A DNA stretch of 64,000 nucleotides from Lutibacter sp. A64 (GTDB lineage Bacteria > Bacteroidota > Bacteroidia > Flavobacteriales > Flavobacteriaceae), in contig NZ_CP092487.1 of NCBI RefSeq assembly GCF_022429565.1, positions 460,001-524,000 of the forward strand, given 5' to 3'. Position 1 is the first letter of the stretch, and each line of letters starts with the position of its first letter. Under the pieces are notes generated by a model. The model was not told the origin of the DNA and did not search any database. It worked only from the letters and a program-made list of their open reading frames with translations. Positions 18,735-41,979 of the stretch are shown here, one piece after another. The position numbers and the translations under genes were made by a program.

Positions 18735-18790
18735 GGTCACTAAATAAATGAAATCATTTGACGGCTTTGTTTCTAAAAAAAGTTTTACAA

Positions 18791-19652: not shown

Positions 19653-20315
19653 ATGAATTTAAAAACACCACATATCATCAATGAAGGAATAGAGCAATAT
19701 TCTTTGGGCGTGCTTCGAGGAAATCACATCCATTATGATTTTGAGAAGATTTTAATTTATTTGGATGTAAAAGGGAAACTGTTGTTTGGGGAAAAGTTTA
19801 AAATTTACAAAGAAGATCGAGAAATTCTTTACAAGCTTTGCAATTATCAAATTCGAGATTGGCAGAATTGCAGAAAACTCAATATAGACATTAACAAAGG
19901 AATTTTACTTTCCGGACCTGTTGGATGTGGGAAAACTTCCTTGATGAAATTGATTCGATATATTACACCCCAATATCCCACATTTGAATTAATTCCAACA
20001 CGAAATGTCACTTTTGCATTTAATCATGTAGGCTATAAAATAATTGAAGAATATGGCGATAATCGATTTTATTGTTTTGATGATCTAGGGATAGAACCCA
20101 TAGGTCGCTTTTTTGGAAAAAATTGTAATGTGATGGGTGAAGTTTTACTTTCTCGCTACGAGTTGTTTTCAAAATACAGATTTAAAACACATTGTACTAC
20201 CAATTTAAATGCTCAAGAATTAGAAGAATATTATGGAAATCGTGTACGATCAAGAATGCGACAATTGTTTAATTTGATTGCTTTTGATAAAGGGAATACT
20301 GATAAGAGAAGATGA
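19653..20315 (+). CDS. P-loop ATPase of the ICE backbone, DnaC-like
   Basis: A protein of 220 residues with Walker A GPVGCGKT (about residue 91), a Walker B-like FYCFDDLG and an arginine-finger region near the end (GNRVRSRMRQLF). Its architecture resembles DnaC/IstB-type loaders, and in ICEs it accompanies the winged-helix gene upstream. The 3' third of the gene is repeated 19 kb away, so the last 60 residues may have been replaced when the polysaccharide locus inserted. The full-length frame is intact. Confidence 0.82.
   Translation: MNLKTPHIINEGIEQYSLGVLRGNHIHYDFEKILIYLDVKGKLLFGEKFKIYKEDREILYKLCNYQIRDWQNCRKLNIDINKGILLSGPVGCGKTSLMKLIRYITPQYPTFELIPTRNVTFAFNHVGYKIIEEYGDNRFYCFDDLGIEPIGRFFGKNCNVMGEVLLSRYELFSKYRFKTHCTTNLNAQELEEYYGNRVRSRMRQLFNLIAFDKGNTDKRR
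20143..20291 (+). repeat. Direct repeat, left copy (3' end of the ATPase gene)
   Basis: A block of 149 bp matches 39192-39340 with one mismatch (C at 20247 versus A at 39296). Outside this block the copies diverge: upstream mostly at silent codon positions (ATPase residues FFGKNCNVMGE versus FFGKDCNVMGE), then no similarity. The two copies bracket the whole polysaccharide locus. Confidence 0.9.
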
Positions 20316-20626
20316 TATAAGCTATTAAAATTTTAAAAGTCTTTAAAAATATATAATCAATTTTCCTTTCAATACAAATGGTTATTTAAAATATACTGTT
20401 CATGTATATTTAATTATTTTTAATTTATCTTAAATTAATATTAATGTAAATTAATTGTAAAATGATATTCTTAGTTATGTTGAAATTTAGATTTAAAATC
20501 AAATAAACTATAGGGGGAATTGGTTTAAAGGTTTTTATATATTGAAATTTAGCATTAACTTAAAAAATATAAATTATGTGAAAATTAAGAATATTTGATT
20601 GACACTTTTTAAAGATATATATAGGT
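20316..20626. other. Intergenic stretch, nothing recognised
   Basis: 311 bp of very AT-rich sequence between the ATPase gene and the convergent hybrid regulator gene. No ORF, strong hairpin or promoter motif stands out. It marks the left inner edge of the inserted polysaccharide locus. Confidence 0.4.
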
Positions 20627-23600
20627 TTAATTTTCTTCATTACTGTTTAAAAAATCTGAAGGTGTCATATTAAATTCTTTTTGAAAATTACGACCAAAAC
20701 TTGTTTGAGATCGGTAACCAACTTTTTCTGCAATTTCAAAAATCTTATTATTTGTTGTTTTTAATAGATAAGCGGCCTTTTTAAGTCTGCTAATATTGAT
20801 CAATTCATTTGGAGAAAGATCAGATATTTCTTTAATTTTTCGGTACAAAGTGGATCTACTCATGTTCATCATTTCAGCTAATGACTCAACATTTAAATCA
20901 GGATCCATTAAATTTTTTTCAATGATTTTATCTAATTTAGAAAGGAATTTATGGTCTATCTCAGATAACGAAAGAGATTTTAAATGTGCTAGAGGAGAGT
21001 TACTATAGTGCCCCAAAATAGTACGTCTATTTTCTAATAGATTTGAGATTTGAACTAACAAGTGTCCCATGGAGAATGGTTTGGAAATATAAGCATCTGC
21101 ACCCGCTTCTAATCCTTCAATTTTGGAATTTAGAGTACTTTTTGCTGTTAAAAGAATTACAGGAACATGGTTAGTATTTATATCTTCTTTTATTTGTTTA
21201 CAAAGTTGAATTCCATCTTTAACAGGCATCATCACGTCGCTAATAACTAATTGAATATCAAAGTTTAAAAAATAATCCCATGCGTCTTGACCATTTGAAG
21301 CAATAAGTACATTATAAGTTTCGGTCAACTCTGAGTAAATAAAGTCTGCTAATTCACTGTTGTCTTCAGCAATTAAAATTACGGGGACATTTTTTTTAAA
21401 ACTAGTAATAACAGTTTTTTCACTATAAACTTCTTCGTTAAATGATAATTCTTGCTTAACCTCAAACTCTTCAGTTTGTTTAATTGGTATTTCTAAAATA
21501 AAATTATTCATTTCGTTTTTTATATTACAATACAGTCCGCCGTGATGTAAATCTGTAAGAGAATACGCAAGAGATAGTCCAATACCGGTACCAAGATTAT
21601 GACTATCACCTTGAATTCTATAAAAGGGTTCAAATATTTTTTTCTGGAGTTCAAAAGGGATTAATTCACCATCATTCTTAATAATAATTTGAAAATTATA
21701 ATTTAATTCGAAAAGTGATATTTCAACTTTAGTCTTAGAGTATTTAATAGCATTATTGAAGAGATTGCTTAGTATTTTTCGAATAGCTTCTTCATCAACA
21801 AAGGCTAAGATATTTTTTTTCGGTTTGATTAACTTAAAACTTAAGTTTTTTTCATTAATCATCTGGCTAAACCTTAAATGCGTTTCTTCTAATAGGTTAT
21901 TTATATTAATTTTTTTAAAAGTGAGTTTTATGTGTTTCATTTCAGTTTTACGAAAATCTAACAGTTCATTAACAAGATTGAGTAACCTTGTCGTGTTTTT
22001 TTCCATAATTTCTAGATTCCTTGGGATTTCTGGAGATTTATAAGTGCTTTTTAAAAGTTTTTCCAACGGACTCTTGATAAGTGTCAATGGTGTCCGAATT
22101 TCATGAGCTATATTGGTGAAAAACTCAATTTTAGCTTTATAAATTTCTTTTTCTTTTTTGTTTTCAAGTTGTTTTATTTTTCGTTTTCTTTTGGCTCTGT
22201 TATACCTATGATCATATCGAAGCAATAAAAATAAAAAAAGCAGAAAAAAGATTGTATATAAAATATAGGCTATTCTACTTTTTGAAAAAGGTGGTAAAAT
22301 TTTGATATTTCTGTAATTATGGCTCCATATACCATGGCTATTTAGGGCTTTAATTTTAAAGAGATAATTACCTGGGGGTAACTCGGTAAAAGCAATTTCA
22401 GGGTTTTTACCAAGACTTATCCAATTATTATTATTATTATTATTATTATTATTTAGTTCTTCTAATTTATACCAATATTTCGTCATTTTTGGAGCAGTAT
22501 AACTTAAAGAAGCAAACTCTAAATTGAAAGTTGATTCTTTATTGTTCAATTGAATTTTATCTGAAAAAAGAATTGATTTTTCTTTAGAAGAGTACTCATC
22601 TACAGGCATCACTTCTTTATTGTGTATTTGAATATTTGTGATATAAATTGGTGGATGATATGTGTTTTTGATAAAAGTTTCAGGATTAAAACTTATCAAT
22701 CCATTCACGCTTCCAAAATACATTTCACCTGATTCATCTTTAAAAGAAGAACTATAATTGAATTGATCACTTAATAATCCGTTAGATTTAGTAAGGGTTT
22801 TTATTTCTTCTGTATCGGGATTATATTCTACTAATCCCTGTGAAGTAGATATCCAAAGTTTTTTATTTTTATCTTCAAGAATTGAATAGATAACATTGCA
22901 AGGGAGATTATCTTCTTTGGTAATTCGGGTAAAGTTGTTTTTTTTAGGATCATACAAGTTTAAGCCATTTTCTGTGGTAATCCACAATCTTTTATTAGAA
23001 TCCTCAAAAATTCCATTGATGACATTAGAACTAATACTATTGGGATCATTCTGGTCATATTTAAAAAAGTTTTTTTTACCACTATTAGGATCATAGGAGT
23101 AAAGACCATCCCAATATGTACCTGCCCATAAAACACCTTTTATGTCTTCTATTAAATAAGTATAATGATGAACTTCGGGAAACTCAGATACCACTTGAAA
23201 TGAGTTGGAATATTCTAGGTATCTAAAGATACCTGAAGATGTCAAAACATAAATATCTCCATTTTTGGTTTCTTTGATATATAAAATGAAATCACTTTTT
23301 AAACCTCCCTCATTCTTACGAGTACCATAGTGATTGATGATTTTTCCAGTTTTGATATTCATTACATCCAAACCATGCTCAAAGGTACCTATCCACAGTT
23401 CATTTCCTCGAGGAAGTAGTCCATGTATATTGTAATGAGAAATATTCCCATTATTATTAATTGAAGGATAGTTTTCGAACTTCCCTGTGGATAAATTCAA
23501 TTTATTAAGTCCAGCATCTTCAGTTCCTATCCATAAATCGCCATATTGATCTTTTTTAATTTCCCTCACAGCATTTCCACTAATAGAATTTTCACCCACT

Positions 23601-24586
23601 TTTGGAAAATACCGTTTAAAGGGGGTATACTGTTTGGGATAATAATTAACACCTCCAAAATACGTTCCTATCCATACTCCTTCTTCCTCATCTAGAACTA
23701 AAGAATAGATTGCATTATCTGAAATGGAATATGGGTTATTATAATTTTTCTTAGAATTTTTATATTTACCAGTTTTGAAATTGTAAATAAATATTCCGGA
23801 TTCACTGGCTATCCATAGCTCTTTATTGTTCTTTTTTAAAAATTTTCTTACAAATAGAGGGTTCTCTTTTTCATTTAACAAAGAAGATGACTTTCCTTCA
23901 GATAACTGGTGAATTAAAGCTCCATTATTTTTTGTACCTATAAAAATTGTGTCATCTGAAATATTAGCCGCAATTTCAGTAATAATTATAGATTCATTAT
24001 TTTTATAACTTAAATCAATTTTTTGGAATGAATTATTGCTTTCTATGTATTCAAATAAAATTTCTGATGAAGAAACATATATTTTTCCAGATTTACTTGT
24101 AGAGATAAATGAAAAATATGATTGCTTATAAATATCTTCCTTACCGGTGTGTAATGATCGTTTATGGAGATTTCCTGATGCAACGTACCAAATGTTTCCT
24201 TTTTTATCATTTTCAATATCAAGTATGGGCTGGTTTTTAGTGCTTTCAATTAGACTAAAAGACTCCATTTTTTCATTATACTTAAAGAGACCAGTATCTG
24301 TACCGACCCATATTACATTTTTGTATTCGTGTAAACACCGTATGAAATTACTTCCAAGACTATTAGTGTCTCCTGGTTTATGCTGAAATATTTTATAATT
24401 ATATCCATCAAATCGATTTAATCCATTCTTTGTTCCAAACCAAATAAACCCCCGATAATCTTGGAGCATACTTAACACAGAATTATGGGATAATCCATCT
24501 TCTACACGATAATGATGGAATGATAAACCTTGGGCATTAACACTAAAAAACTTCAGGAATAATATAATAATTAATAAGTGTCTCAT
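20627..24586 (-). CDS. Hybrid two-component system regulator of the PUL
   Basis: A protein of 1319 residues: signal peptide (1-18), two-component propeller repeats (WFGTKNGLNRFDGY, WVGTDTGLFKYNE, repeated to about residue 620), a Y_Y_Y domain, a membrane helix near 765-785, a HisKA domain with His828 (NIAHEIRTPLT), a HATPase domain, a receiver domain with Asp1117 (VISDVMMPVKDG) and an AraC-type DNA-binding domain at the C-terminus (IAEKVGYRSQTSFGRNFQ). The periplasmic propeller senses a breakdown product of the glycan and activates the SusCD operon. It is divergent from that operon. A trinucleotide tract adds about ten Asn in the Y_Y_Y region. Confidence 0.95.
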   Translation of the reverse strand: MRHLLIIILFLKFFSVNAQGLSFHHYRVEDGLSHNSVLSMLQDYRGFIWFGTKNGLNRFDGYNYKIFQHKPGDTNSLGSNFIRCLHEYKNVIWVGTDTGLFKYNEKMESFSLIESTKNQPILDIENDKKGNIWYVASGNLHKRSLHTGKEDIYKQSYFSFISTSKSGKIYVSSSEILFEYIESNNSFQKIDLSYKNNESIIITEIAANISDDTIFIGTKNNGALIHQLSEGKSSSLLNEKENPLFVRKFLKKNNKELWIASESGIFIYNFKTGKYKNSKKNYNNPYSISDNAIYSLVLDEEEGVWIGTYFGGVNYYPKQYTPFKRYFPKVGENSISGNAVREIKKDQYGDLWIGTEDAGLNKLNLSTGKFENYPSINNNGNISHYNIHGLLPRGNELWIGTFEHGLDVMNIKTGKIINHYGTRKNEGGLKSDFILYIKETKNGDIYVLTSSGIFRYLEYSNSFQVVSEFPEVHHYTYLIEDIKGVLWAGTYWDGLYSYDPNSGKKNFFKYDQNDPNSISSNVINGIFEDSNKRLWITTENGLNLYDPKKNNFTRITKEDNLPCNVIYSILEDKNKKLWISTSQGLVEYNPDTEEIKTLTKSNGLLSDQFNYSSSFKDESGEMYFGSVNGLISFNPETFIKNTYHPPIYITNIQIHNKEVMPVDEYSSKEKSILFSDKIQLNNKESTFNLEFASLSYTAPKMTKYWYKLEELNNNNNNNNNNWISLGKNPEIAFTELPPGNYLFKIKALNSHGIWSHNYRNIKILPPFSKSRIAYILYTIFFLLFLFLLLRYDHRYNRAKRKRKIKQLENKKEKEIYKAKIEFFTNIAHEIRTPLTLIKSPLEKLLKSTYKSPEIPRNLEIMEKNTTRLLNLVNELLDFRKTEMKHIKLTFKKININNLLEETHLRFSQMINEKNLSFKLIKPKKNILAFVDEEAIRKILSNLFNNAIKYSKTKVEISLFELNYNFQIIIKNDGELIPFELQKKIFEPFYRIQGDSHNLGTGIGLSLAYSLTDLHHGGLYCNIKNEMNNFILEIPIKQTEEFEVKQELSFNEEVYSEKTVITSFKKNVPVILIAEDNSELADFIYSELTETYNVLIASNGQDAWDYFLNFDIQLVISDVMMPVKDGIQLCKQIKEDINTNHVPVILLTAKSTLNSKIEGLEAGADAYISKPFSMGHLLVQISNLLENRRTILGHYSNSPLAHLKSLSLSEIDHKFLSKLDKIIEKNLMDPDLNVESLAEMMNMSRSTLYRKIKEISDLSPNELINISRLKKAAYLLKTTNNKIFEIAEKVGYRSQTSFGRNFQKEFNMTPSDFLNSNEEN
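22424..22453 (-). repeat. In-frame ATT trinucleotide tract (poly-Asn)
   Basis: Ten consecutive ATT units lie on the plus strand and encode a run of Asn in the hybrid regulator, between a Tyr-rich strand and WISLG in the periplasmic Y_Y_Y domain. The unit length of three keeps the frame when copies are gained or lost. Confidence 0.85.
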
Positions 24587-24656
24587 TGTTACAAATCTAC
24601 ATTAATTAATTAATAATTTTAAGCATCAATTCGTCTCATTGTTCAACAATTTGTAT

Positions 24657-24664
24657 CAAATTTA
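24657..24664 (-). promoter_or_regulatory. Promoter minus-7 element of the hybrid regulator gene
   Basis: TAAATTTG on the minus strand matches TANNTTTG exactly and would start a transcript with a leader of about 60 nt. No TTTG minus-33 element is seen at the right distance. Confidence 0.35.
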
Positions 24665-24880
24665 TGGCGAGAATTATCTTTTGTTAAAGTTGAACGATAT
24701 TGTAGAATAATTGAAACCATAAATATATTAATAATCGAAATAAAATAATTTTCTTTGAAGAATAATGAATTGATGTTTATAGGTGTGTAAAATTATTTAT
24801 ATAATAAATTTAAACTGATTTATTTGATAAATTAAAAAAGTATAAACATAAGATAAGAGCTCTTAAAATTTATATATGAA

Positions 24881-24888
24881 TAAGTTTG
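24881..24888 (+). promoter_or_regulatory. Promoter minus-7 element of the PUL operon
   Basis: TAAGTTTG matches TANNTTTG exactly, 62 bp before the SusC start. No good TTTG at minus 33 is visible, which is usual for an activator-dependent promoter and fits control by the divergent hybrid regulator. Nothing else was recognised in the 364-bp gap. Confidence 0.4.
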
Positions 24889-24950
24889 TTAGTCAATTCG
24901 TTTCACTAAACCATTCATTAACTTAAAAAATTTCTAAATGAAATTCTATT

Positions 24951-27900
24951 ATGAGAACTAAATTACTATTTAATTTTAAGTCATTTTTTATTCTGACTTT
25001 TATTCTTCTTTGTGTTCAGCAAACCTTTGCACAAAGAATTGAAGTGACAGGAACAATTACCAGCATTGATGGAGAACCCGTTCCATTCGTAAATGTTGTG
25101 GTAAAAGGAACATCTCTGGGAACCTCAGCAGATATTAATGGAAAGTATTCCGTTATGGCTGATGGGGATCAAATTTTAGTTTTTAGCTACATTGGCTATA
25201 AAACTATTGATGTCCCAATTAACAATCAATCGATTGTAAATGTTTTTTTACAGGAAGATATTGCTGCATTGGATGAAGTTGTTGTTGTGGGGTATGGGAC
25301 TCAGAACAAAAAAGATCTTACCAGTGCGGTTTCTATTGTAAAATCTGATCAAATTCAGAAACGACAATCTACTACAGTTGCAGAAAGTCTTCAAGGTCTT
25401 GCTGCAGGTGTAAATGTAAGAGGAGGAGGACAGCCCGGTCAGGAAGCAAAAATAGAGATTCGGGGATTGAAAAACCTTCAGAATGCGAATCCGTTATATG
25501 TAATTGATGGATTAATTACTACTGCAAATAGAGATTTTAATTCTAATGATATTGAGACTATTCAGATTTTAAAAGATGCTGCAGCTGCGGCAATTTATGG
25601 ATCTCGAGCTGCAAATGGAGTTATAATTATCACAACTAAAAAAGGTAGAGAAGGACCTCTTAAAATAACTGTGAGCTCAAAATTAAGTGTTACCGAGGTA
25701 CCACGTTATGATCTTGCAGGTCAAGAAGAATTTGTTCAACTAAACAATATGGCATATGATAATGCTGGAATACCAAGACAAAATTTGAATCTTGATGTAA
25801 ATACTGATTGGCAGGATGAAGTATTCCGTACTGGACTTATTCAGGATCAAAATGTTAGTTTTTCTGGAGGAGGAGAAAATTCTTCATATTTTATGTCTGG
25901 AAATTATTTAGGGAATAAAGGAACCGTAATCGATACAAAATTTGAAAGAATCTCTTTTCGTGTAAATAGTAGTGGAAAGAAAGGAATTTTCAGTGTAGGT
26001 GAGAATCTTGCTTTATCAAATTCCAAGAATAATGAGATTGGTGGACCAGAATCAATGCGTGGAAATCCATTTATTGATGTATTAAGATTATTTCCTACGA
26101 TACCAGTATATGATGAGAGCAATCCAGGAGGATATGGTTATGGAAAATCAGGTGTAGCAAATACTTTTGGCGCAAACCCAGTTGCGATATCAAACCTTAT
26201 AGATCAGACTAACGAAAATTTTAGAATTAGAGGTAATGTATGGGCAGAGCTTGATCCATTCCCATTCTTAAAATATAGAATAAGTTTTGGTTATGAAACG
26301 AGTTTTGATAGTTTTAAGTATTTGAGAAAAGAAGGAAGTTGGACATTAAACCAACCTTATGATCCTTCTTCAACAAGTCAAAATAGAGCCCAGTCTCAAT
26401 CAAAAATACTTGAAAATACTCTTACTTTTAAGAAAAGATTTGGTAAACACAATCTTACGGTATTAGCAGGTACAACTTACCAAAAGGACAGTTATGAACA
26501 AATAAATGGATTAAAAAGAAATCTTTTGATTAATCCAAATACAGGTGAATATTTTGATGTTCTTGATCTAGGAGATCAAGCACAAGTTGGTGGTTTTAGA
26601 AATGAAGCAACATTACTTTCTTACTTAGGTAGGCTTGAATACAATTTTGATGATCGTTATTTATTAAATGCCGTATTTAGAAGAGATGGTTCTTCAAGGT
26701 TTAGCGATGAAAATAAATGGTCAAATTTTCCTTCGCTTTCATTAGCATGGAGATTAAATAATGAATCTTTTTTTAATTTAGAAAGTATTAATGATATTAA
26801 ATTAAGAGCGAGTTATGGTGAACTAGGTAGTGGAAATATAGGTAACTATGAATATCAAGGCTTTATTAATACATTTGGAGGTGCTGTATTTGGAGCTGAT
26901 CAAGACCTAAACGCTTCTGCAACACAAGTAAGGCTCGCAAATTCTGAACTTAGATGGGAAACATTAAAGCAAACAAATATAGGTGTGGATTTTGGAGTGT
27001 TTGATGATAAGTTTCGGGTAACTGCAGATTATTTTATTGCAAAAACCGAAGATGTATTATTTGGATTCCCAATTCTTCTTTCAACAGGGAATGATGGTGG
27101 CAATCCAATTGCGAATGCAGCAACCGTAGAGAATAGAGGTTTTGAATTTAACGTAGCTTATAATAAGGTAATTAACGATGACTTTAGTTTTAATGCTTCG
27201 GTAAACTTTACAAAACTTAATAATAAACTTATAGAGCTGGGGAATGGTTTAAATGAAAGCATTCAGGGGAATACAATTACTCGTGCAGGAGAACCCGTAG
27301 GGATGTGGTATGTTCTACAAACAGATGGGTTATTCCAAAGTCAGGAAGAAATTGAAGGTTATACAAATTCTACTGGAGATGTGATACAACCTAGTGCGTT
27401 ACCTGGAGATATTCGATTTGTTGATGTGAATGATGATGGTGAGATTACCAATGAAGATAAAGCAATAGTTGGCAGTCCTTGGCCAGATTTTGAGATGGGG
27501 CTAAATGCAGGAGTAAACTACAAAAATTTTGACTTCTCAATGAACTGGATTGGATCTTTTGGTGCAACTGTTTATGATGGTTATAGAAGTATTGTGGATC
27601 GATTTGATGATGATAGTAACTATAGATCTGGTGTACAGCCTTGGACTCCCGAGAATACAAATACGGATTTCCCAAGAGTAGTTAAAGGGACAACTCTTAA
27701 CTCCAGAGGTGATAGTGACAGGTGGTTAGAGGATGGTGATTTTGCAAGACTAAAATATATAGGATTTGGATACAATCTTCCAAAAAAAATTCTTGATAAA
27801 ATTGGTTTTTCAAAAATGCGTCTAAGTCTTTCAGCTCAAAATGTTATTACAATTACTGGTTATAAAGGTTTAGACCCTGAATTCAGTAATAGTAATATTT

Positions 27901-27974
27901 TTCAGAGAGGTGTGGATTTTGGATCTTATCCGAATGTTCAAACATATTCTTTAGGAATAGAATTTGGTTTTTAA
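24951..27974 (+). CDS. SusC-type TonB-dependent transporter of the PUL
   Basis: A protein of 1007 residues: signal peptide ending in QQTFAQ, carboxypeptidase-regulatory-like domain (EVTGTITSIDGEPVPFVNVVVKG), a plug domain (VVVGYGTQNKKDLTSAVS; YVIDGLITTANRDFNSND; AAAAAIYGSRAANGVIIITTKKG) and a beta-barrel ending in GIEFGF. It imports oligosaccharides through the outer membrane using TonB. It opens the operon that carries SusD and the hydrolases, next to a divergent hybrid sensor. The VVVGYGTQ plug start is the classic SusC signature, which the peptide-type SusC at 4147 lacks. Confidence 0.95.
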   Translation: MRTKLLFNFKSFFILTFILLCVQQTFAQRIEVTGTITSIDGEPVPFVNVVVKGTSLGTSADINGKYSVMADGDQILVFSYIGYKTIDVPINNQSIVNVFLQEDIAALDEVVVVGYGTQNKKDLTSAVSIVKSDQIQKRQSTTVAESLQGLAAGVNVRGGGQPGQEAKIEIRGLKNLQNANPLYVIDGLITTANRDFNSNDIETIQILKDAAAAAIYGSRAANGVIIITTKKGREGPLKITVSSKLSVTEVPRYDLAGQEEFVQLNNMAYDNAGIPRQNLNLDVNTDWQDEVFRTGLIQDQNVSFSGGGENSSYFMSGNYLGNKGTVIDTKFERISFRVNSSGKKGIFSVGENLALSNSKNNEIGGPESMRGNPFIDVLRLFPTIPVYDESNPGGYGYGKSGVANTFGANPVAISNLIDQTNENFRIRGNVWAELDPFPFLKYRISFGYETSFDSFKYLRKEGSWTLNQPYDPSSTSQNRAQSQSKILENTLTFKKRFGKHNLTVLAGTTYQKDSYEQINGLKRNLLINPNTGEYFDVLDLGDQAQVGGFRNEATLLSYLGRLEYNFDDRYLLNAVFRRDGSSRFSDENKWSNFPSLSLAWRLNNESFFNLESINDIKLRASYGELGSGNIGNYEYQGFINTFGGAVFGADQDLNASATQVRLANSELRWETLKQTNIGVDFGVFDDKFRVTADYFIAKTEDVLFGFPILLSTGNDGGNPIANAATVENRGFEFNVAYNKVINDDFSFNASVNFTKLNNKLIELGNGLNESIQGNTITRAGEPVGMWYVLQTDGLFQSQEEIEGYTNSTGDVIQPSALPGDIRFVDVNDDGEITNEDKAIVGSPWPDFEMGLNAGVNYKNFDFSMNWIGSFGATVYDGYRSIVDRFDDDSNYRSGVQPWTPENTNTDFPRVVKGTTLNSRGDSDRWLEDGDFARLKYIGFGYNLPKKILDKIGFSKMRLSLSAQNVITITGYKGLDPEFSNSNIFQRGVDFGSYPNVQTYSLGIEFGF

Positions 27975-27990
27975 ACAAAATATAACAAAG

Positions 27991-29520: not shown

Positions 29521-29527
29521 TATTTAT

Positions 29528-29560
29528 TCCCTGAAGCTTTTGAATTAAGTGCTTCAGGGA
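29528..29560 (+). terminator. Hairpin after SusD, likely partial terminator
   Basis: A 10-bp stem (TCCCTGAAGC / GCTTCAGGGA) with a 13-nt loop and only a short T-run. It probably lowers or processes the transcript so that SusC/SusD are made in excess over the hydrolases. Confidence 0.6.
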
Positions 29561-29577
29561 TTTAAAAAAAAAGATAA

Positions 29578-30741: not shown

Positions 30742-30752
30742 AAAAAAATATC

Positions 30753-30786
30753 CCGCCATTTTATGTAATGTGGATGGCGGTTTTTT
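30753..30786 (+). terminator. Intrinsic terminator inside the PUL operon
   Basis: A GC-rich 7-bp stem (CCGCCAT / ATGGCGG) followed by six T. It sits only 4 bp before the next start codon at 30791. It looks like a real terminator, so downstream genes depend on read-through, anti-termination or a promoter not seen. Confidence 0.75.
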
Positions 30787-30790
30787 ACTT

Positions 30791-31831
30791 ATGAAAAAAT
30801 ATTTCATATTATTACTTTTTGTCAATATGATGTTTATGCCCGTTTTTGCGCAACAACCTAATCCTCCAGGACAGGTGAAAGAAGGAGGAAAACCTAAAAA
30901 TGAGGCCTACTTGTTTGCACATATGACAAATCAGGACTATGGAAGGCTATATTATTCTGTATCCAAAGATGGTTTGCATTGGCAGAACTTAAATGATGGA
31001 AAACGAGTTTTTGAAGATTATCAAGGACATCCTGATATTGTAAAAGGACCACAAGGAAAATACTATATAGCTGGGAATACTAGTGATTCTTCACCAGACA
31101 TAAACATTTGGGTTTCTGAAGATCTGATCTCTTGGAAAAAGTATTCAGTTTACACGCCAGATCTAAAGGCAACGTCTGGCTATGCAGAAGCATTACAGCG
31201 CATTGGCGCGCCAAAACTTTTTTATGACGATGACTCTTCTCAATTTATTATGACCTGGCATACACCTCATAAAGAAGGATCTAAAGAAGATCCTGAAAGT
31301 TACTGGGCAAGCCAACGTACACTTTATGTTTTGTCTAAAGATCTTAAGACTTTTGAAGGGCCTCCTCAGCGACTTTTTGATTGGGATTTGGGTACTATTG
31401 ATGTTATTATCAGAAAAATTGATGGTAGTTATTATGCGATTTTAAAAGATGAAACCTATCCTACACTTTATTGGCCAACAGGAAAAACAATTCGGATTGC
31501 CAGATCTGGTTCTTTATTGGGACCATATTCCCTTCCTCAAGATCCTATAAGTCCAAATTTTAGGGAAGCGCCAACCTTAATTCCTTCACCAGATGGAGAT
31601 AATTGGTATTTATATTATGAGCAATATCCAGGTGTGTCTTATGGACTTTCGATCTCAGATAACTTAAATGGCCCGTGGTATCAGGCATCAGGTTATACTT
31701 TTTTTAGTGATTGGGATAAATATAGTTTACCATCGAAAGTTAGACATGGTTGTATGATTACGATTTCAAATGAGGAATATAATAGTTTGGTTAGTGAATT
31801 TGGAATTTCACAAGAAATAGAAAAAAATTAG
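30791..31831 (+). CDS. GH43-like five-bladed propeller hydrolase
   Basis: The ATG at 30791 gives 346 residues with a signal peptide (MKKYFILLLFVNMMFMPVFAQ); the in-frame ATG at 30770 lies inside the terminator stem. The protein has a GH43-like layout of catalytic acids: Asp in GHPDIVKG, Asp in TIDVIIRK and Glu in REAPTLIP, spread over blades with YYI/WYLYY strands. GH43 and related families remove arabinose or xylose. The sequence is not a standard GH43 in the first blade, so a related propeller family is possible. Confidence 0.7.
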   Translation: MKKYFILLLFVNMMFMPVFAQQPNPPGQVKEGGKPKNEAYLFAHMTNQDYGRLYYSVSKDGLHWQNLNDGKRVFEDYQGHPDIVKGPQGKYYIAGNTSDSSPDINIWVSEDLISWKKYSVYTPDLKATSGYAEALQRIGAPKLFYDDDSSQFIMTWHTPHKEGSKEDPESYWASQRTLYVLSKDLKTFEGPPQRLFDWDLGTIDVIIRKIDGSYYAILKDETYPTLYWPTGKTIRIARSGSLLGPYSLPQDPISPNFREAPTLIPSPDGDNWYLYYEQYPGVSYGLSISDNLNGPWYQASGYTFFSDWDKYSLPSKVRHGCMITISNEEYNSLVSEFGISQEIEKN

Positions 31832-31834
31832 CTT

Positions 31835-33598
31835 ATGAAATATCTACAAAAATCAATAATAATTATGTACGGTATTTGTGTTCTCAGTTGTTCTGCGGAT
31901 CAATCTCTTGAGTCAGATAATCCTATTGATCCTGAAAATCCTTATTCAGAAATCGAAACAGAAGATCCTGTTCCCGGAATTAGAATTGCGTGGGATTATA
32001 CTACACAAACACAAATATCTAAAGAGAATGAACTGAGTTACAACGGTTATGCAAGACTTATTCAATTAAGTGATGAGTCGCTGCTCGTAACTTATGAATC
32101 TAATGGAAATGTGTTAGTAAAAAGGAGCAATGATCTTGGTAGTTCTTGGTCAGAAGCTATATATGTAGCTACTTATAACGAAGGGGTTAATATGGCAACA
32201 CCAGATCTTCTACTACTGGAAAATGGGAATGTTTTACTGTGTTATAATCCCCGTCCTGGTGAAACTGCTGCCATTTCTAAGAGATTTTTGATTAAAACAA
32301 TCTTAAGTACAGATGGTGGAATGACTTGGGATGATGATCAAATAGTTTATGAGGGAGATACCAAATTTGAAAATGGTGTTTGGGAACCCACTTTATTACA
32401 ATTACCCAGTGGAGAAATCCAGTTATTATTTTCAAATGAAAATATTTATCAAAGTACTAATGAGCAAAATATTTCTGTGCTAAGATCTACAGATAACGGA
32501 ATTACGTGGACCAAAGAACCCGAAATCGCCAGCTTTAGAAGTGGAAGTCGGGATGGTATGCCTTCTCCTATTTATCTTCAAAATAAAAATGAAATTGTTT
32601 ATTCTATAGAAGATAATGGTAGTAATAATGAATTTAAACCTTACATTATTAGAAATTCAATTTCTGAGAATTGGTCTCAAATCGTTGGAGGAAATAGTGA
32701 AAATAGAAGTTATGCATTAAAGGAGCCCATTGAAGATTCTGAACACGCAGGAGCTCCATATCTAGCACAATTGCTTACCAGTGAAACCCTTCTTTCTTAT
32801 CAAGGAACTGAAAATAGAAACGGAAATAGTCTTAATAATGCTGAAATGAGAGTGGCAATTGGGGATGATAGTGTCAAAAATTTTGATAGAATTACAACTC
32901 CATTTATTATTCCTGAAAATTCTTCTTCTCTATGGAATAGCATTGCCGTACTTAAAGATAACTCAGTTGTCGCTTCAACGACTACGAATGCTTTTTCAAG
33001 CACTAAAAGCGCTGAAGTATGGATGATTAAAGGTTTTATCATTCCCGAATTAGAAGTTGAAAATGCATCCGTTTTAATAGATGGTGAAATTTTAGAAGAT
33101 GTATGGTTATATGATTTTCCTATTTTAATTGCTCATAAAGGGGAAACCCAATTGAAGGCTAATATTTTGAGTGATGCTAATTATTTGTATGTTATCACAA
33201 AAGTTTTAGATAAGGTTATTTCGAGTACATCGGCAAATATTAATAATAATGACGGAAGTATTATTTATTTGGATCCTTTAAATAAGAATTATAAGAAACC
33301 AGAGATTGGTGTATTTAAAATAAATATTTCTGCTAATAATGAAATTCAAGCTTTCGAAGGGAATAATTCAGAATGGATAGAAATCGAAATACCTGGAATA
33401 AAAACTGCTGTAAGTAACATTGATGGATACATTCAGGAAATATCCATTCCGTGGAATTCTATTGGTGGGAAGCCTGATTCAGATTCCAGAATTGGTTTCA
33501 GTATGGAACTTATTGAAAAAGGAAATGCAAGTTATTTTGAAATGATTTCTACAACACAAGCAAATTCGCCATATACATGGTTAAGACTAAAAATATAA
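31835..33598 (+). CDS. Sialidase-fold exo-hydrolase with a CBM9-like C-terminus
   Basis: A protein of 587 residues with lipoprotein Cys (CVLSCSADQ). Residues 50-400 are a six-bladed sialidase-like propeller with three Asp boxes (SNDLGSSW, STDGGMTW, STDNGITW) and the SRDGMPSPIYL motif. This fits GH93 exo-arabinanases or other non-sialic-acid members better than true sialidases, as no sialic-acid genes are present. Residues 410-587 form a CBM9-like sugar-binding domain (DGEILEDVWL; IPWNSIGGKP). It lies 3 bp after the previous gene. The substrate is inferred from the neighbours. Confidence 0.75.
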   Translation: MKYLQKSIIIMYGICVLSCSADQSLESDNPIDPENPYSEIETEDPVPGIRIAWDYTTQTQISKENELSYNGYARLIQLSDESLLVTYESNGNVLVKRSNDLGSSWSEAIYVATYNEGVNMATPDLLLLENGNVLLCYNPRPGETAAISKRFLIKTILSTDGGMTWDDDQIVYEGDTKFENGVWEPTLLQLPSGEIQLLFSNENIYQSTNEQNISVLRSTDNGITWTKEPEIASFRSGSRDGMPSPIYLQNKNEIVYSIEDNGSNNEFKPYIIRNSISENWSQIVGGNSENRSYALKEPIEDSEHAGAPYLAQLLTSETLLSYQGTENRNGNSLNNAEMRVAIGDDSVKNFDRITTPFIIPENSSSLWNSIAVLKDNSVVASTTTNAFSSTKSAEVWMIKGFIIPELEVENASVLIDGEILEDVWLYDFPILIAHKGETQLKANILSDANYLYVITKVLDKVISSTSANINNNDGSIIYLDPLNKNYKKPEIGVFKINISANNEIQAFEGNNSEWIEIEIPGIKTAVSNIDGYIQEISIPWNSIGGKPDSDSRIGFSMELIEKGNASYFEMISTTQANSPYTWLRLKI

Positions 33599-33604
33599 AC
33601 AAAT

Positions 33605-34639
33605 ATGAAAAAAATCTATAATCTTAGCTTGCTACTTTTGCTCGCAAGCGTCACTACTTTTGCACAGTCGGGCAAATTCACAAATCCAATTTTAAGTTCT
33701 GGAGCAGATCCATACAGTACTTTTTATGATGGTTACTATTATTATACAAATACGCTTCAGAACAGATTAGTGCTTTGGAAAACAAAAAATTTAGCGAATA
33801 TAAAAGACGCTGAAAGTAAAACAATTTGGATTCCACCCGAAGATACAATGTATTCCAAAAATATTTGGGCTCCTGAGTTTCATATAATAGATGGTAAATG
33901 GTATGTATACTTTGCTGCGGATGATGGGGATAATAAGAATCATCGTATGTATGTTCTGGAAAATAAATCTAAGGATCCATTTAAAGGTGAATGGAAGTTT
34001 AAAGGGAAAATTGCTGCTAATCCTGACCGTTGGGCGATTGACGGAAATATTTTTAAATATAAAGATGAACTTTATATGGTTTGGTCAGGATGGGAAGGTG
34101 ACATAAACGGCCAACAGAATATTTACATTGCTAAAATGAAAAATCCTATAACAATAGAAGGTAATAGAGTTTTAATCTCAGAACCTTCATACATTTGGGA
34201 GAAGCAGGGTGATCTAGATGATGAAATAAATCCACCACATGTTAATGTAAATGAAGGTCCCCAATATCTAGAACATAATGGAAAAATATTTATTGTTTTT
34301 TCTGCAAATGGTTGTTGGACAGATTATTATTCTCTAGGGATGTTGAGTTTTACAGGTGATGATCTTTTGGACCCAGCTTCATGGGAAAAACACTCGAAGC
34401 CTATTTTTACCAAATCTGAAGAAAATTTGGTCTATGCACCTGGACATAATTCCTTTTTTAAATCTCCGGATGGAACAGAGGACTGGATATTGTATCATGC
34501 AAATTCTAATCCTGGAGATGGTTGTGGAGGAAAGAGATCTCCAAGAATGCAAAAAATAAATTGGAATAAAGATGGAACTCCAAATTTTGGAATTCCAGTA
34601 TCTGAAGAAACTATTTTAAAAATACCGTCACAAAAATAA
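33605..34639 (+). CDS. GH43 exo-alpha-L-arabinofuranosidase-like enzyme
   Basis: A protein of 344 residues with a signal peptide (LLASVTTFAQ). GH43 propeller with catalytic base in SGADPYSTFYDG, pKa-tuning Asp in AIDGNIFKY and acid in NEGPQYLEHNG; KNIWAPEFHIIDGKWYVYFAA is the family blade-2 signature. The pattern resembles GH43_26 exo-1,5-alpha-L-arabinofuranosidases, which release arabinose from arabinan ends. It lies 6 bp after the sialidase-fold gene in the same operon. The subfamily assignment is tentative. Confidence 0.83.
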   Translation: MKKIYNLSLLLLLASVTTFAQSGKFTNPILSSGADPYSTFYDGYYYYTNTLQNRLVLWKTKNLANIKDAESKTIWIPPEDTMYSKNIWAPEFHIIDGKWYVYFAADDGDNKNHRMYVLENKSKDPFKGEWKFKGKIAANPDRWAIDGNIFKYKDELYMVWSGWEGDINGQQNIYIAKMKNPITIEGNRVLISEPSYIWEKQGDLDDEINPPHVNVNEGPQYLEHNGKIFIVFSANGCWTDYYSLGMLSFTGDDLLDPASWEKHSKPIFTKSEENLVYAPGHNSFFKSPDGTEDWILYHANSNPGDGCGGKRSPRMQKINWNKDGTPNFGIPVSEETILKIPSQK

Positions 34640-34643
34640 AATT

Positions 34644-35699
34644 ATGAAAAAAACATTATATACTTTAATAGTCTTAGTATTATTTTTTGGGAGTTTAAGC
34701 GCTCAAGATCGATGGAGTAGGAAAAAGGCGAAGGACTGGTACGAAAAGCAAGATTGGCTAACAGGTGCTAATTTTATTCCGAGTACTGCTATCAATCAAT
34801 TAGAGATGTGGCAGGAAAATACTTTTGATCCTAAAACAATTGATAAAGAACTTGGTTTTGCTGAAGGTATTGGCTTTAATATTATGCGTGTATATCTTCA
34901 TAGTTTGGTATATAAAGCTGATAAGGAAGGATTCAAATCACGAATTAAAGAATACCTAGAAATAGCTGATTCTCATAATATTCAGACTATTTTTGTTTTA
35001 TTTGATGATGTATGGGATGCCAGCCCTAAAATCGGAAAACAACCTGATCCAAAGCCAGGTACACACAACTCCGGATGGGTTCAGGATCCAGGATATCCTC
35101 AATCTGTAGATATGTCAAATTCAAGAGATCTAGAGGTATACGTAAAAGATATTCTCTCTACGTTCGGAAATGATATTCGAATTTTGTTTTGGGATCTTTA
35201 TAATGAACCAGGGAATAATGATAAGGGAAATGAATCTATGGCACTTTTAGAAAATGTGTTCAAATGGGCTCGTGAAGTAAATCCTTCTCAGCCTATATCT
35301 GCAGGATTGTGGAAGTGGAGCCTTAAAGATCTTAATACTTTCCAAGCATTACATTCAGATATTATCACTTATCACTGTTATGATGAACCACAAAATCATA
35401 ATAGAATTATTGAGCTTTTAAAAACTCATGGTCGCCCAATGATTTGTACAGAATATATGGCACGTACAAGAAATAATACTTTTGCCAATACCCTAACTTT
35501 ACTTCATAAAAAAAATATTGGAGCAATTAACTGGGGGTTAGTAAAAGGGAAAACAAATACTATCTATGCATGGAATACTCCTATTGAATCTGGTGAAGAG
35601 CCGATAGAGTGGTTTCATGATATTTTTAGAAAAGACGGAACACCTTATCGTCAAGATGAAGTAAATCTTATTAAAAAACTGAATTCAGAACTTAAATAA
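34644..35699 (+). CDS. GH5-like (clan GH-A) glycoside hydrolase, second copy
   Basis: A protein of 351 residues with a cleavable signal peptide (VLFFGSLSAQ) instead of a lipoprotein Cys. The catalytic residues are Glu188 in WDLYNEPGN and Glu270 in ICTEYMART. It is a paralogue of the enzyme at 29578, sharing GANFxPSTAINQLEMWQE, IDKELGxAEGIG and NSGWVQ. The different export signal suggests that one copy acts at the surface and this one in the periplasm. The stop of the previous gene is only 4 bp upstream. Confidence 0.82.
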   Translation: MKKTLYTLIVLVLFFGSLSAQDRWSRKKAKDWYEKQDWLTGANFIPSTAINQLEMWQENTFDPKTIDKELGFAEGIGFNIMRVYLHSLVYKADKEGFKSRIKEYLEIADSHNIQTIFVLFDDVWDASPKIGKQPDPKPGTHNSGWVQDPGYPQSVDMSNSRDLEVYVKDILSTFGNDIRILFWDLYNEPGNNDKGNESMALLENVFKWAREVNPSQPISAGLWKWSLKDLNTFQALHSDIITYHCYDEPQNHNRIIELLKTHGRPMICTEYMARTRNNTFANTLTLLHKKNIGAINWGLVKGKTNTIYAWNTPIESGEEPIEWFHDIFRKDGTPYRQDEVNLIKKLNSELK

Positions 35700-35707
35700 T
35701 ATTTTCG

Positions 35708-36904
35708 ATGAAACATTTAAAAATCACTAATATTCTTGTTGTTCTTTTTATTTTTACGTTGAACTCGTGTAAGGATAGTTTAGCAAAAAAGGGAAAATCT
35801 GTGAAAATTAAAACAGAAAAACAAAGTTTCAATAAAGAAACTTATTTAAATTCCAAAGAGTTTGACACTCTAATAGATGGTAAACAGGTTAAATTATATT
35901 GGATCGAAACTGATAGTATGAAAGCAGCTTTCACGAACTATGGAGGGCGAATTGTTGGTTTATGGGTTCCAGATGTAAATGGTAAAATGATAGATGTGAT
36001 AACTGGAATGGGTAATGTGAAAGCTTATGCAAATTCAACCGAACCCTATTTCGGTGCAACCATCGGTCGAGTAGGGAACAGAATTGCCAAAGGTAAATTT
36101 CAAATTGATGGCAAGCAGTATACTATTCCTTTAAATAATGGAGAAAACAGTTTGCACGGTGGTAAAAAAGGTTTTCAATATGTGGTTTGGAATGTAGAGC
36201 AACCAGATGCAAAAACACTGAAATTAAACTATACTTCACCCGATATGGAAGAAGGTTTCCCAGGGGATTTGGAAGTGCAAGTAACTTATTCTATTACGGA
36301 TATGCAATCGTTAAAAATGGAATATCATGCTGTTACTAATAAGGAAACACCAGTAAACCTTACCAATCATGCTTTTTTCAATTTGAATGGTGAAGGTAGC
36401 GGGACTATTTTAAATCATCGAGTTAGGTTTTTTGCAGATAAATTTACACCGGTGGATGAAGGACTTATACCGTTTGGACAGCATAAGGAAGTTAAAGGGA
36501 CTCCATTCGATTTTACTGATTTCCATACTATAGGTGAAAGAATAAAATTTGAAAATGAACAGTTACAATTCGGAAAGGGTTATGATCATAATTTTGTATT
36601 GAATGGAACTAAAGGAAGAGGCATGGATCATGCAGCGACCATAATTGGAGATGAATCAGGTATTATAATGGATGTATACACACAAGAACCTGGAATTCAA
36701 TTTTACAGTGGAAACTTTATGGAGGGGAAAAACAGATTCAAATCAGGTGTTAAAGATAAATATAGAACAGCATTTGCTTTAGAAACACAGCATTTTCCAG
36801 ATGCTCCAAATCAGAAGAGTTTTCCTTCAATTATTCTCAATCCTAAAGATGAATACCATACGGTTTCTTTATATCAATTTTCTGTGGAAAACAATAAAAA
36901 TTAA
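35708..36904 (+). CDS. galM: Aldose 1-epimerase (mutarotase), exported
   Basis: A protein of 398 residues with a lipoprotein-type signal (FTLNSCKDS). The GalM fold shows in TNYGGRIVGLWVPD, GATIGRVGNRIAKGKF and SLHGGKKGFQY; the catalytic His is in TNHAFFNL and the catalytic Glu near the end in ALETQHFPDAPNQ. The enzyme interconverts alpha and beta anomers of free sugars. In a PUL it speeds use of sugars released with one fixed anomeric form. It ends exactly at the start of the next gene (1-bp overlap). Confidence 0.9.
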   Translation: MKHLKITNILVVLFIFTLNSCKDSLAKKGKSVKIKTEKQSFNKETYLNSKEFDTLIDGKQVKLYWIETDSMKAAFTNYGGRIVGLWVPDVNGKMIDVITGMGNVKAYANSTEPYFGATIGRVGNRIAKGKFQIDGKQYTIPLNNGENSLHGGKKGFQYVVWNVEQPDAKTLKLNYTSPDMEEGFPGDLEVQVTYSITDMQSLKMEYHAVTNKETPVNLTNHAFFNLNGEGSGTILNHRVRFFADKFTPVDEGLIPFGQHKEVKGTPFDFTDFHTIGERIKFENEQLQFGKGYDHNFVLNGTKGRGMDHAATIIGDESGIIMDVYTQEPGIQFYSGNFMEGKNRFKSGVKDKYRTAFALETQHFPDAPNQKSFPSIILNPKDEYHTVSLYQFSVENNKN

Positions 36905-37959
36905 TGATTAGGTTATCTAAAATATTATTTGGTTTACAATTTATTTTTTGCTTGTTAGGCTGTCAGGATTATCAAGAGAAATTATCAACAAAACTGGAAG
37001 TTCAAAATGAAAATAAATTTTATACAAATCCAGTTGTAAAGAGGGATTTCCCAGATCCTACAGTTATTAAAGCTGAAAATGGAACATATTATGCATATGC
37101 TACTAATACTAAAATTGATGGGATTCAAATAAATATTCAAATCTTAAAATCATATGATCTTTTACAGTGGAAAACGTTACCAGATGCGCTTCCTGAAAAA
37201 CCCATATGGGCGGATAAAGATTTTTGGGCACCACATGTAGTTTATAATGAAAACACACGAAAATATTACCTTTTCTATTCTGGGGAATCTAAAGGTCAAA
37301 ATATTGGGAAATGTTTAGGAGTAGCTGTTTCGGATTCTCCTGAAGGTCCATTCAAAGATAAAGGAGAACCACTGTTATGTGGGGAAGGTTTTAAAAATAT
37401 AGATCCAATGGTTTATTGTGATAGGACTTCTGGTAGAAATTATCTGTATTGGGGATCTGGATTTGAAAGTATAAAAGTTCAGGAACTTTCAGACAATTTT
37501 TTAAGTTTTAAAGAAGGTAGCAGACCTAAGAATTTGATTTTTCCTATATCTGAGGATAATTCTGAAAACTATGAGAATTTAGTGGAAGGTGCGTGGTTAC
37601 AAAAGCATTTAAATTTCTATTATTTATATTATTCTGGCGATAATTGTTGTGGTGAAAACGCTCATTATGCAGTTATGGTAGCAAGATCAGAAAGTCCTAC
37701 AGGACCATTTGAAAAGTTTAAGAATAATAATGGGAAGCCCTATATATTGAGCAACAATGATCACTGGCGTGCACCTGGTCATAATTCTGTAATAACAGAT
37801 GAAGAAGGGCAAGACTGGATAATGTATCATGCGATTGACCTTCAAGATTCTGAGAAAGGGCGTTTTTTTTTGATGGATAAAATTTATTATAAAAATGGAT
37901 GGCCTATAATTGGTAATGGAACACCTTCTATTTTAAAAATCGATATACCTAAAACATAA
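36904..37959 (+). CDS. GH43 family glycoside hydrolase
   Basis: A protein of 351 residues with a lipoprotein Cys (LLGCQDY). GH43 signatures: base Asp in RDFPDPTVIK, Asp in NIDPMVYCD, acid Glu in VEGAWLQKH, and WAPHVVYNENTRKYYLFYSG in blade 2. The two Cys in GDNCCGENAHY are typical of some arabinofuranosidase/arabinanase-type members. It overlaps the epimerase stop by 1 bp and lies 3 bp before the next GH43 gene, so the three are co-translated. Exact activity is not readable. Confidence 0.85.
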   Translation: MIRLSKILFGLQFIFCLLGCQDYQEKLSTKLEVQNENKFYTNPVVKRDFPDPTVIKAENGTYYAYATNTKIDGIQINIQILKSYDLLQWKTLPDALPEKPIWADKDFWAPHVVYNENTRKYYLFYSGESKGQNIGKCLGVAVSDSPEGPFKDKGEPLLCGEGFKNIDPMVYCDRTSGRNYLYWGSGFESIKVQELSDNFLSFKEGSRPKNLIFPISEDNSENYENLVEGAWLQKHLNFYYLYYSGDNCCGENAHYAVMVARSESPTGPFEKFKNNNGKPYILSNNDHWRAPGHNSVITDEEGQDWIMYHAIDLQDSEKGRFFLMDKIYYKNGWPIIGNGTPSILKIDIPKT

Positions 37960-37962
37960 AAT

Positions 37963-38907
37963 ATGAAACTAAAATATATTCTTATCCTCATACTTTTAAG
38001 TAATATAAGTTGTACTGCTCAGAATTTAGAACGAGATCAAATTTATTTGGCAGATCCGACGATTTTTAAAGATAACGAAATATACTATATATATGGAACA
38101 AAAGGTGATCCCAATATTAATGGTGAAGGTTTTCTGGTATACTCATCAAATGATTTAAAGCGATGGGAAGGACCTTTAGGAGCCACAGATGGGTTTGCCT
38201 TAAAGAAAGGTGATGCTTTTGGAGATCAAGGCTTCTGGGCACCACAGGTCTTTAAATATAATTCAAAATATTACATTGCTTATACAGCTAATGAACATAT
38301 TTCGATTGCTACTTCTGATAATCCTCTAGGACCATTTACTAATAATATGAAGGCTTTGGATGCTCCGGTGAAACAAATAGATCCGTTTATATTTTTTGAT
38401 AAAGGGAAGGCTTATTTATATCATGTGCGTTTGCAGAATGGGAATAGAATCTTTGTAGCAGAAATGAATGAAGATTTTAAAAGCATTAAGCCTGAAACTT
38501 TAAAAGAATGTATTAATGCCAAAGAGAATTGGGAAAACACTGAAAAGGTGGAGTGGCCAGTAGCAGAAGGACCAACAGTTTTTAAACATAACGGACTTTA
38601 TTACCTGCTTTATTCCGCAAATGATTTTAGAAACCCAGATTATGCAGTAGGATATGCTACTAGTAAAGAACCTATAGGACCTTGGGAGAAAAGCAAAGAT
38701 AACCCAATAATTTCTCAATCTAATACGAATTACTCTGGGTCAGGACATGGAGATGTTTTTTACGATAAGAATGGAAATATGAATTATGTTCTACACACTC
38801 ATTATTCAGAAGAAAATGTTCAGCCCCGTAAAACAGCTATTCTAAAACTTTATTTTAAAGGAAAACAATTAATGGTGGATGAAAATAGTTTTAATTGGGT
38901 TGAATAA
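37963..38907 (+). CDS. GH43 family glycoside hydrolase, last gene of the PUL
   Basis: A protein of 314 residues with a signal peptide (LLSNISCTAQ, possibly lipid-anchored at the Cys). GH43 triad: Asp in YLADPTIFKD, Asp in QIDPFIFFD and Glu in VAEGPTVFKH; FWAPQVFKYNSKYYIAYTA is the blade-2 signature. These enzymes remove arabinose or xylose residues. It closes the operon. No terminator is clear in the 247 bp between its stop and the ATPase-gene remnant. Confidence 0.86.
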   Translation: MKLKYILILILLSNISCTAQNLERDQIYLADPTIFKDNEIYYIYGTKGDPNINGEGFLVYSSNDLKRWEGPLGATDGFALKKGDAFGDQGFWAPQVFKYNSKYYIAYTANEHISIATSDNPLGPFTNNMKALDAPVKQIDPFIFFDKGKAYLYHVRLQNGNRIFVAEMNEDFKSIKPETLKECINAKENWENTEKVEWPVAEGPTVFKHNGLYYLLYSANDFRNPDYAVGYATSKEPIGPWEKSKDNPIISQSNTNYSGSGHGDVFYDKNGNMNYVLHTHYSEENVQPRKTAILKLYFKGKQLMVDENSFNWVE

Positions 38908-39154
38908 TAATCATATATGTTTATAATAAGGAAACTAATTTACAATCAGTTTTAGATTTAATAGTAAGTAATTGATTAGCCATAAGTCCATGCTAAAAGC
39001 ATTTTATGTGATGTATAATATATAATCATTGAATATAATCTTAAATTTTTTAATTTTTATTAATAACGTGTAGCACATTTTATGATAAGGTTTAATACTG
39101 TATTTAGAATTATATTTATATTAAGATATAACTAAATAAAATATATTAGTATTA

Positions 39155-39364
39155 GTGTTTTTTGGGAAAGACTGCAATGTAATGGGCGAAATTTTACTTT
39201 CTCGCTACGAGTTGTTTTCAAAATACAGATTTAAAACACATTGTACTACCAATTTAAATGCTCAAGAATTAGAAGAATATTATGGAAATCGTGTAAGATC
39301 AAGAATGCGACAATTGTTTAATTTGATTGCTTTTGATAAAAAAAGTTCTGATAAAAGATACTAG
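39155..39364 (+). pseudogene. 5'-truncated copy of the ICE P-loop ATPase gene
   Basis: About 69 codons, from GTG at 39155, match the last third of the ATPase at 19653-20315 (FFGKDCNVMGEILLSRYELF onward) and end at their own stop. Walker A and B are absent and similarity stops sharply at the 5' side, so this is a remnant, not a working gene. It marks the right edge of the inserted polysaccharide locus and probably preserves the original 3' end of the ATPase gene. Confidence 0.88.
39192..39340 (+). repeat. Direct repeat, right copy
   Basis: Pairs with 20143-20291, 148 of 149 bases identical, same orientation, 19,049 bp apart. Recombination between the two would excise the PUL as a circle and leave a single intact ATPase gene. 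Confidence 0.9.
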
Positions 39365-39623: not shown

Positions 39624-39633
39624 ATCACTAATT

Positions 39634-41960: not shown

Positions 41961-41979
41961 ATTAGGCAATTAATCAATA

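Follow-up and report, generated by a model that had tools for sequence, protein, structure and literature searches.

In the 64,000-nucleotide stretch of the Lutibacter sp. A64 genome analyzed here (contig NZ_CP092487.1, positions 460,001 to 524,000; the whole stretch is referred to as the window), a polysaccharide utilization locus (PUL) lies within an element resembling integrative and conjugative elements (ICEs), between a gene for a P-loop ATPase and one for an amidase (Table 1). The interval between these two backbone genes is a cargo hotspot in a family of ICE-like elements of the Flavobacteriaceae, and in the window it also holds, behind the PUL, a second, 5'-truncated ATPase gene end (a tail) followed by a DUF4143 gene. 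In line with a preliminary description of the window, Pfam searches recognized a PUL between the two ATPase copies, comprising a hybrid regulator, the susC/susD pair and carbohydrate-active enzymes (CAZymes); among the latter, the GH43 protein encoded at 36904 gave structural matches to xylanase, arabinofuranosidase and arabinanase. The same scan found no recombinase among the open reading frames (ORFs) between the two copies. The only other copy of this PUL found in the genus, with 88% identity, is located in another Lutibacter genome (G018), where homology begins at 20626, the edge of the regulator gene, and where the contig ends inside the PUL.

The direct repeat of the ATPase end, which had been described as 149 bp long with one mismatch, was confirmed, with 148 of the 149 bases being identical and the sole mismatch at position 20247. 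Equally, the left copy proved to be the end of an intact ORF of 220 aa, and the right copy to be part of an in-frame tail that runs from codon 152 to its own stop. The block sits within a longer, diverged homology (201 nt in total, 93% identity), in which 7 of 34 sites differ in the left flank (20109-20142 vs. 39158-39191) and 6 of 18 in the right flank (20292-20309); in other words, the two window copies differ at 1 of 149 positions within the block as opposed to 13 of 52 in the flanks. Orthologues of the block from two further Lutibacter genomes show 21-25 differences from the copies of the window over the 149 sites, and the probability of a 148-base match given a background of 128/149 is P ~4e-9; a chance origin of the match was accordingly excluded. 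Since a near-identical block is here enclosed by diverged flanks, it would represent a tract homogenised between two distinct alleles, and thus the window may harbor two distinct ATPase alleles that have recently come to share one tract. A DNA search of the whole genome returned no copies of the repeat beyond these two. This genome also carries two more distant full ATPase genes of the same family, and two of the weak, below-cut-off models that matched the window ATPase are presumably DnaC-like.

The order of the backbone genes (RteC, HTH_17, a 179-aa protein, ATPase, cargo, amidase, TrbC, TraG, TraM and TraN) was encountered again in other Flavobacteriaceae loci, while the cargo varied. In Lutibacter flavus, the closest relative, nucleotide identity with the window was 84% up to 20291 and 80% from 40812 onwards, and the cargo at the same place encoded four proteins, one of them a type II methyltransferase and another weakly matching a restriction enzyme; neither a PUL nor an ATPase tail nor a DUF4143 gene was present between the ATPase and the amidase flank of that element. 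A relative lacking the PUL, with a single ATPase copy joined to the DUF4143/amidase region, had been anticipated in the preliminary description; L. flavus agrees with this in having no tail, but restriction-modification-like cargo lies in between and DUF4143 is missing. Because homology to L. flavus resumes only at 40812, the DUF4143 gene belongs to the cargo, whose interval ends at 40811, and not to the backbone to which it had been assigned. Concerning other relatives, the distance from the ATPase gene to the first recognized backbone gene could be delimited in 26 of 40 family loci and ranged there from 104 to 15,075 bp, a few of these intervals being measured to TraG since smaller genes before TraG fell under the size limit. 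A second count, from which ten named loci and all loci under ~10.3 kb were left out, bounded 34 of 80 loci, with values of 112 to 9,287 bp; the wider locus set comprised the best 80 of 144 loci, 78 of them from outside Lutibacter. The hotspot cargo in relatives was Gabija, HipA, AbiE or other genes, and among the matches listed for 79 cargo proteins, GajA and GajB each occurred at least four times and HipA at least five times. Shared backbone flanks with different cargo are what characterizes hotspots of the SXT/R391 type, and both the earlier proposal that a fixed backbone gene forms the boundary at which cargo is loaded and the expectation of other cargo at the same ATPase 3' end were borne out. 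Plasmid records contributed three distant ATPase matches.

We also compared 120 full ATPase genes with downstream DNA, taking pairs that share the sequence following the gene. Among the 17 close cargo-sharing pairs (downstream identity of at least 88%), six pairs from four groups had bodies that were 74-92% identical, whereas identity amounted to 84-100% in the last 160 nt and to 89-99% in the downstream DNA. Examples of the rise from body to end are 76.0 to 95.0%, 82.5 to 96.2%, 86.7 to 98.1% and 91.9 to 100%, and the change points in these pairs, scanned over the gene and 300 nt downstream, fell at codons 115-172. In a control of 1500 pairs without downstream similarity (body identity of 68-90%), a rise of at least 10 points was observed in seven (mean -0.6, standard deviation 4.3); one of the six rising pairs has a body identity above the body range of this control. 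Given that the end is far more alike than the body in 6 of 17 pairs, as expected from mosaicism by recombination between elements, cargo can enter via recombination inside the ATPase end.

Displaced ATPase ends similar to that of the window were observed elsewhere in the genus. In 38 Lutibacter genomes, 13 isolated 3' pieces (in 10 genomes) contrasted with 2 isolated 5' pieces (P ~0.004), as counted by eye; this count excludes four contig-end pieces (three 3', one 5'), paralogues of nearly full length, the second halves where a full gene was split, and weak matches to unrelated sequences. Tail starts were spread from about codon 100 to 183, and one of the isolated 5' pieces stops at codon 176, the start point of several tails. 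Five tails bound gene-carrying cassettes, namely those of the window, G008, G009, L114 and L239. The G008 cassette is a 17-kb SusCD locus (ECF sigma, FecR, SusC, SusD and six more genes), downstream of which two tails and then a second HTCS/SusC/SusD locus are located; that of G009 encodes a histidine kinase, a response regulator and a 249-aa protein, that of L114 DUF6088 and AbiEii, and that of L239 a single 207-aa product. No integrase, transposase or other recombinase was found among the ORFs of at least ~90 aa in these five cassettes. The L114 tail was detected by blastn and had been missed by tblastn with clustering.

Two comparisons resemble the situation before and that after a displacement. 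In genome G006, a tail lies within a few hundred bases after the ATPase gene on two contigs, and the segment formed by gene end, spacer and tail is 82-84% identical over 454-641 bp to a tail-spacer-tail segment of G008. Locus L114, in turn, has an AbiE-like pair between ATPase and tail, and the last codons of its tail, together with the following cargo, are 97-99.6% identical to L133. This case reads as the exchange of a cargo block, with its ATPase end, into an element already bearing a tail.

Taking these results as a whole, homologous recombination within the ATPase gene, in its 3' part, is in our view the probable route by which the hotspot exchanges its cargo. According to this model, cargo would enter, or be swapped, by recombination within this conserved part, and the incoming DNA would supply its own ATPase 3' end, so that the gene stays whole; after a single crossover or a co-integration, the resident 3' end would persist as a tail beyond the newly arrived cargo. 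Applied to the window, this would make the PUL the cargo and the tail with DUF4143 older cargo, and the two ATPase ends would have recently exchanged 149 bp. While the hotspot, the tails, the co-inheritance of ATPase end and cargo in some pairs, and the near-identical tract within diverged flanks are observed, recombination of the RecA type as the mechanism is deduced, as is the sequence in which events took place in the window. Judging from the mosaics, homologous exchange among related elements is favoured over a dedicated cassette system or recombinase, and such an exchange fits better since no recombinase was found among the scanned ORFs of the five tail-bounded cassettes.

A number of observations weigh against this model. 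The remaining 11 of the 17 close pairs lacked a comparable rise (7 fell by 0.4-12.3 points and 4 rose by 0.2-5.2), all of them having bodies at least 87% identical, and the pair L246/L108 changes in the opposite direction, from 99.5 to 86.3% at codon 70. Of the 13 tails counted in the genus, seven begin at codons 164-176, a possible sign of a specific site. Tails were rare outside Lutibacter, being present in 1 of 40 loci when ~16 kb downstream was searched and in 2 of the 78 non-Lutibacter loci of the wider set when up to 10 kb was searched; most exchanges would therefore leave no tail. Regarding L114 and L133, whose transfer genes are mostly 89-95% identical, the upstream backbone is only 83-86% and tail codons 109 to ~195 are only 85% identical, and L114 is thus not a clean insertion into an L133-like element.

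As for how the window itself was assembled, its structure is compatible with insertion of a circle, with exchange between two resident elements after which the duplicate backbone was lost, and with an older tail having been trimmed, the short diverged flanks offering too little sequence to decide among the three. The preliminary description had proposed a Campbell-type insertion, whereby a circle that carried the PUL together with a 3' fragment of the ATPase gene would have integrated into the resident ATPase gene by a single crossover; in the window, this fragment would have begun at codon 152. The geometry matches this exactly: direct repeats flank the insert, the homogenised tract is sharp, and the left end joins the PUL while the right end joins DUF4143, as in another Lutibacter. 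Nevertheless, we regard this course of events as doubtful, given that searches within the genus revealed neither a donor circle nor another copy of the PUL bearing an ATPase fragment, that the flanks, with 34 and 18 nt, do not suffice for assigning the alleles to donor or resident, and that the truncated tail-DUF4143 unit occurs without the PUL. This unit was found in an uncultured Lutibacter with 88.1% nucleotide identity over 39158-40771 (1,621 bp), and neither a PUL nor a full ATPase gene nor transfer genes were recognized in the examined stretch around it. Such a remnant free of any PUL had been named beforehand as an observation that would refute the insertion model, and in view of it the window tail cannot be regarded as having arisen through the arrival of the PUL, although the remnant's 5' end, at about codon 142-145 instead of 152, is not the same. 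The tail of the window may accordingly be a scar that predates the PUL. In a corresponding scenario, which we hold to be possible but short of probable, the PUL would have replaced X in an earlier ATPase-X-tail-DUF4143 arrangement and trimmed the tail, and gene conversion would have evened the 149 bp. The 7-10 additional codons of the remnant's tail are in line with this, yet two independent truncations are also conceivable, and DUF4143 relatives occur in 14 of the 38 genomes, whereas, among the 20 loci fetched, a clear tail was seen beside only those of the remnant and the window.

Displaced 3' ends are the usual mark of site-specific integration at gene 3' ends, where the newcomer, an island or prophage, rebuilds the gene and displaces the old end. 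A recombinase with the ATPase 3' end as its attachment site would account for the cluster of tail starts at codons 164-176, which lies beside a hypervariable repeat-like insert. However, unlike in such islands and prophages, no recombinase was found among the scanned ORFs of the cassettes and the displaced ends start variably, without a constant crossover point, and site-specific integration was dropped as the principal explanation on these grounds; moreover, a 149-bp tract does not resemble the trace of an exchange of a few bases, and the integrase-proximal end shows no similarity to the ATPase end. We judge it very unlikely. Random duplication and decay of ATPase genes, independent of cargo, could be invoked for the tandem full genes and degenerate pieces seen in some genomes, but is hardly credible in view of the excess of 3' over 5' pieces and of the ATPase ends that accompany cargo in some pairs. 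A more far-reaching version of homologous exchange, which we deem unlikely, sees the ATPase 3' end as a reusable loading dock, integron-like but lacking an integrase, with cargo circles that bear a short ATPase tail passing from element to element through homology alone. If true, each arrival would rebuild the gene and push the old end downstream, and the full gene, SusCD locus, tail, tail and second SusCD locus of G008 would be an ordered record of successive loadings. An integron-like attC interpretation was examined for ATPase 3' ends of other lineages: in 12 of 93 ends, which are not independent and in part spurious, 8 or 9 of the 9 bases past the stop codon were complementary, and neither window copy was among them; 500 shuffles gave a mean of 3.5 and a maximum of 8.

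Several peculiarities of the ATPase genes were also recorded. Repeat-like in-frame inserts of variable length (HPELVSGS, ERSRS and similar) precede the THITTNLN motif at the same place in many Lutibacter genomes (L012, L018, L024, L026, L036 and others). Downstream of the gene in L055, L071, L072, L010, L042 and others, a 45-50 bp repeat is followed by a re-copied version of the last 16 ATPase codons, forming short arrays; in a minority of ends, the start of this repeat is complementary to the first codons of the re-copied unit, and the repeat was found alone in L058, L059, L060 and L061. Tandem full ATPase genes were present in L010, L071 and L072, the second copy being divergent (45-47% to that of the window), and L052 bears a 5' fragment (5304-5462, codons 1-53) immediately upstream of a full copy. 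An isolated tail in L189 (13570-13839; G014:C67) lies ~1.4 kb from a chorismate synthase gene, which is also the neighbor of the window integrase.

The placement of the PUL inside an ICE, as put forward in the preliminary description, is only partly established. Both a tyrosine integrase and type IV secretion/Tra genes were found in the window: TraG scored 329.2 bits with TIGR03783 (cut-off 261.55), TraM and DUF4138 passed the Pfam cut-off, and TIGR03780 TraN stayed under its own cut-off. The integrase gene follows TraN in several related loci and precedes RteC in others. Conversely, the relaxase family PF03432 had no match in the whole genome (other relaxase families were not searched), and no exact att repeat of at least 15 bp was detected when 49601-50500 was compared with the first 16 kb of the window and the 40 kb to its left; self-transfer is therefore unproven. 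At 15161-17584, the window also encodes a BioF-like aminotransferase of 807 aa whose second half is of unknown family; in 13 of 40 related loci, a protein encoded upstream of RteC matches this half at 46-55%, each of these proteins being cut at the locus edge.

Table 1. Features of the ICE-like element and its cargo in the window.
Feature	Coordinates	Strand	Basis or remark
RteC-family regulator, backbone	17675..18514	+	Pfam RteC 4e-84; 91% aa in L. flavus element
HTH_17 small DNA-binding protein, backbone	18758..19069	+	Pfam; same gene order in L. flavus and further Lutibacter loci
179-aa backbone protein, here named Rep179	19077..19616	+	no Pfam/NCBIfam match; syntenic in relatives
Full P-loop ATPase gene	19653..20315	+	matches all weak and under cut-off; 92% aa in L. 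flavus
Left copy of putatively homogenised 149-bp tract, codons 164-213	20143..20291	+	148/149 identity
Cargo interval	20292..40811	.	stretch without homology in L. flavus element there, ATPase tail excepted
Hybrid two-component sensor/regulator of PUL	20627..24586	-	Pfam
SusC and SusD	24951..29520	+	Pfam
GH5-like, four GH43 (one weak, below cut-off), BNR/CBM9, GH2-like TIM barrel, aldose epimerase	29578..38907	+	Pfam
Displaced ATPase 3' end, codons 152 to stop	39158..39363	+	
Right copy of putatively homogenised 149-bp tract	39192..39340	+	148/149 identity
AAA_14/DUF4143 gene	39634..40752	+	Pfam; beside ATPase tail in another Lutibacter
N-acetylmuramoyl-L-alanine amidase, right-hand backbone flank of hotspot	40839..41495	-	Pfam; synteny
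Transfer genes TrbC-like, TraG (VirB4 type), TraM, TraN	41661..48508	+	Pfam/NCBIfam
ORFs at the usual TraF, TraI, TraJ and TraK places	within 41661..48508	+	named by position
Tyrosine integrase, beside chorismate synthase (50394-51464)	48505..49758	-	Pfam

The interval described here would constitute a concrete site where sugar-use and defence cargo swap on mobile elements of marine Flavobacteriaceae, and would offer PULs a route for movement without a recombinase of their own; the displaced ATPase ends, in addition, represent a sequence mark that could allow past loadings to be counted and placed in order. A literature search returned no paper recognized as dealing with this site, which is weak evidence of absence as the search terms did not contain the name of the ATPase gene. 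Mobile elements of gut Bacteroidota have been reported to carry PULs with SusC and SusD, with 47 reported (PMC6907783); the present case concerns a marine Lutibacter and a loading site resolved to one gene end. Chromosomal hotspots renew their cargo through conserved flanking genes, often without recognizable mobile-element genes (PMC5635113), and the turnover via conserved flanks is shared with the hotspot studied here, which differs from them in residing on a mobile element and in its one-sided scars. The closest parallel is provided by the SXT/R391 ICEs, whose hotspots HS1-HS5 hold variable cargo at fixed intergenic positions of a conserved backbone, and for which mosaics arising via inter-ICE recombination are described, along with short junction variants interpreted as possible traces of earlier insertions that were replaced in part (PMC2791158). 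A conserved backbone, fixed cargo positions and inter-element mosaics are thus common to both; the elements analyzed here, which belong to another ICE family and phylum, differ in that PULs are among the cargo, in that the crossover would lie inside the end of a coding gene able to travel with the cargo, and in that the displaced end is kept as a tail. The hotspot is therefore of a kind already known, and the variant consists in a coding gene end serving as the portal, with retained tails.

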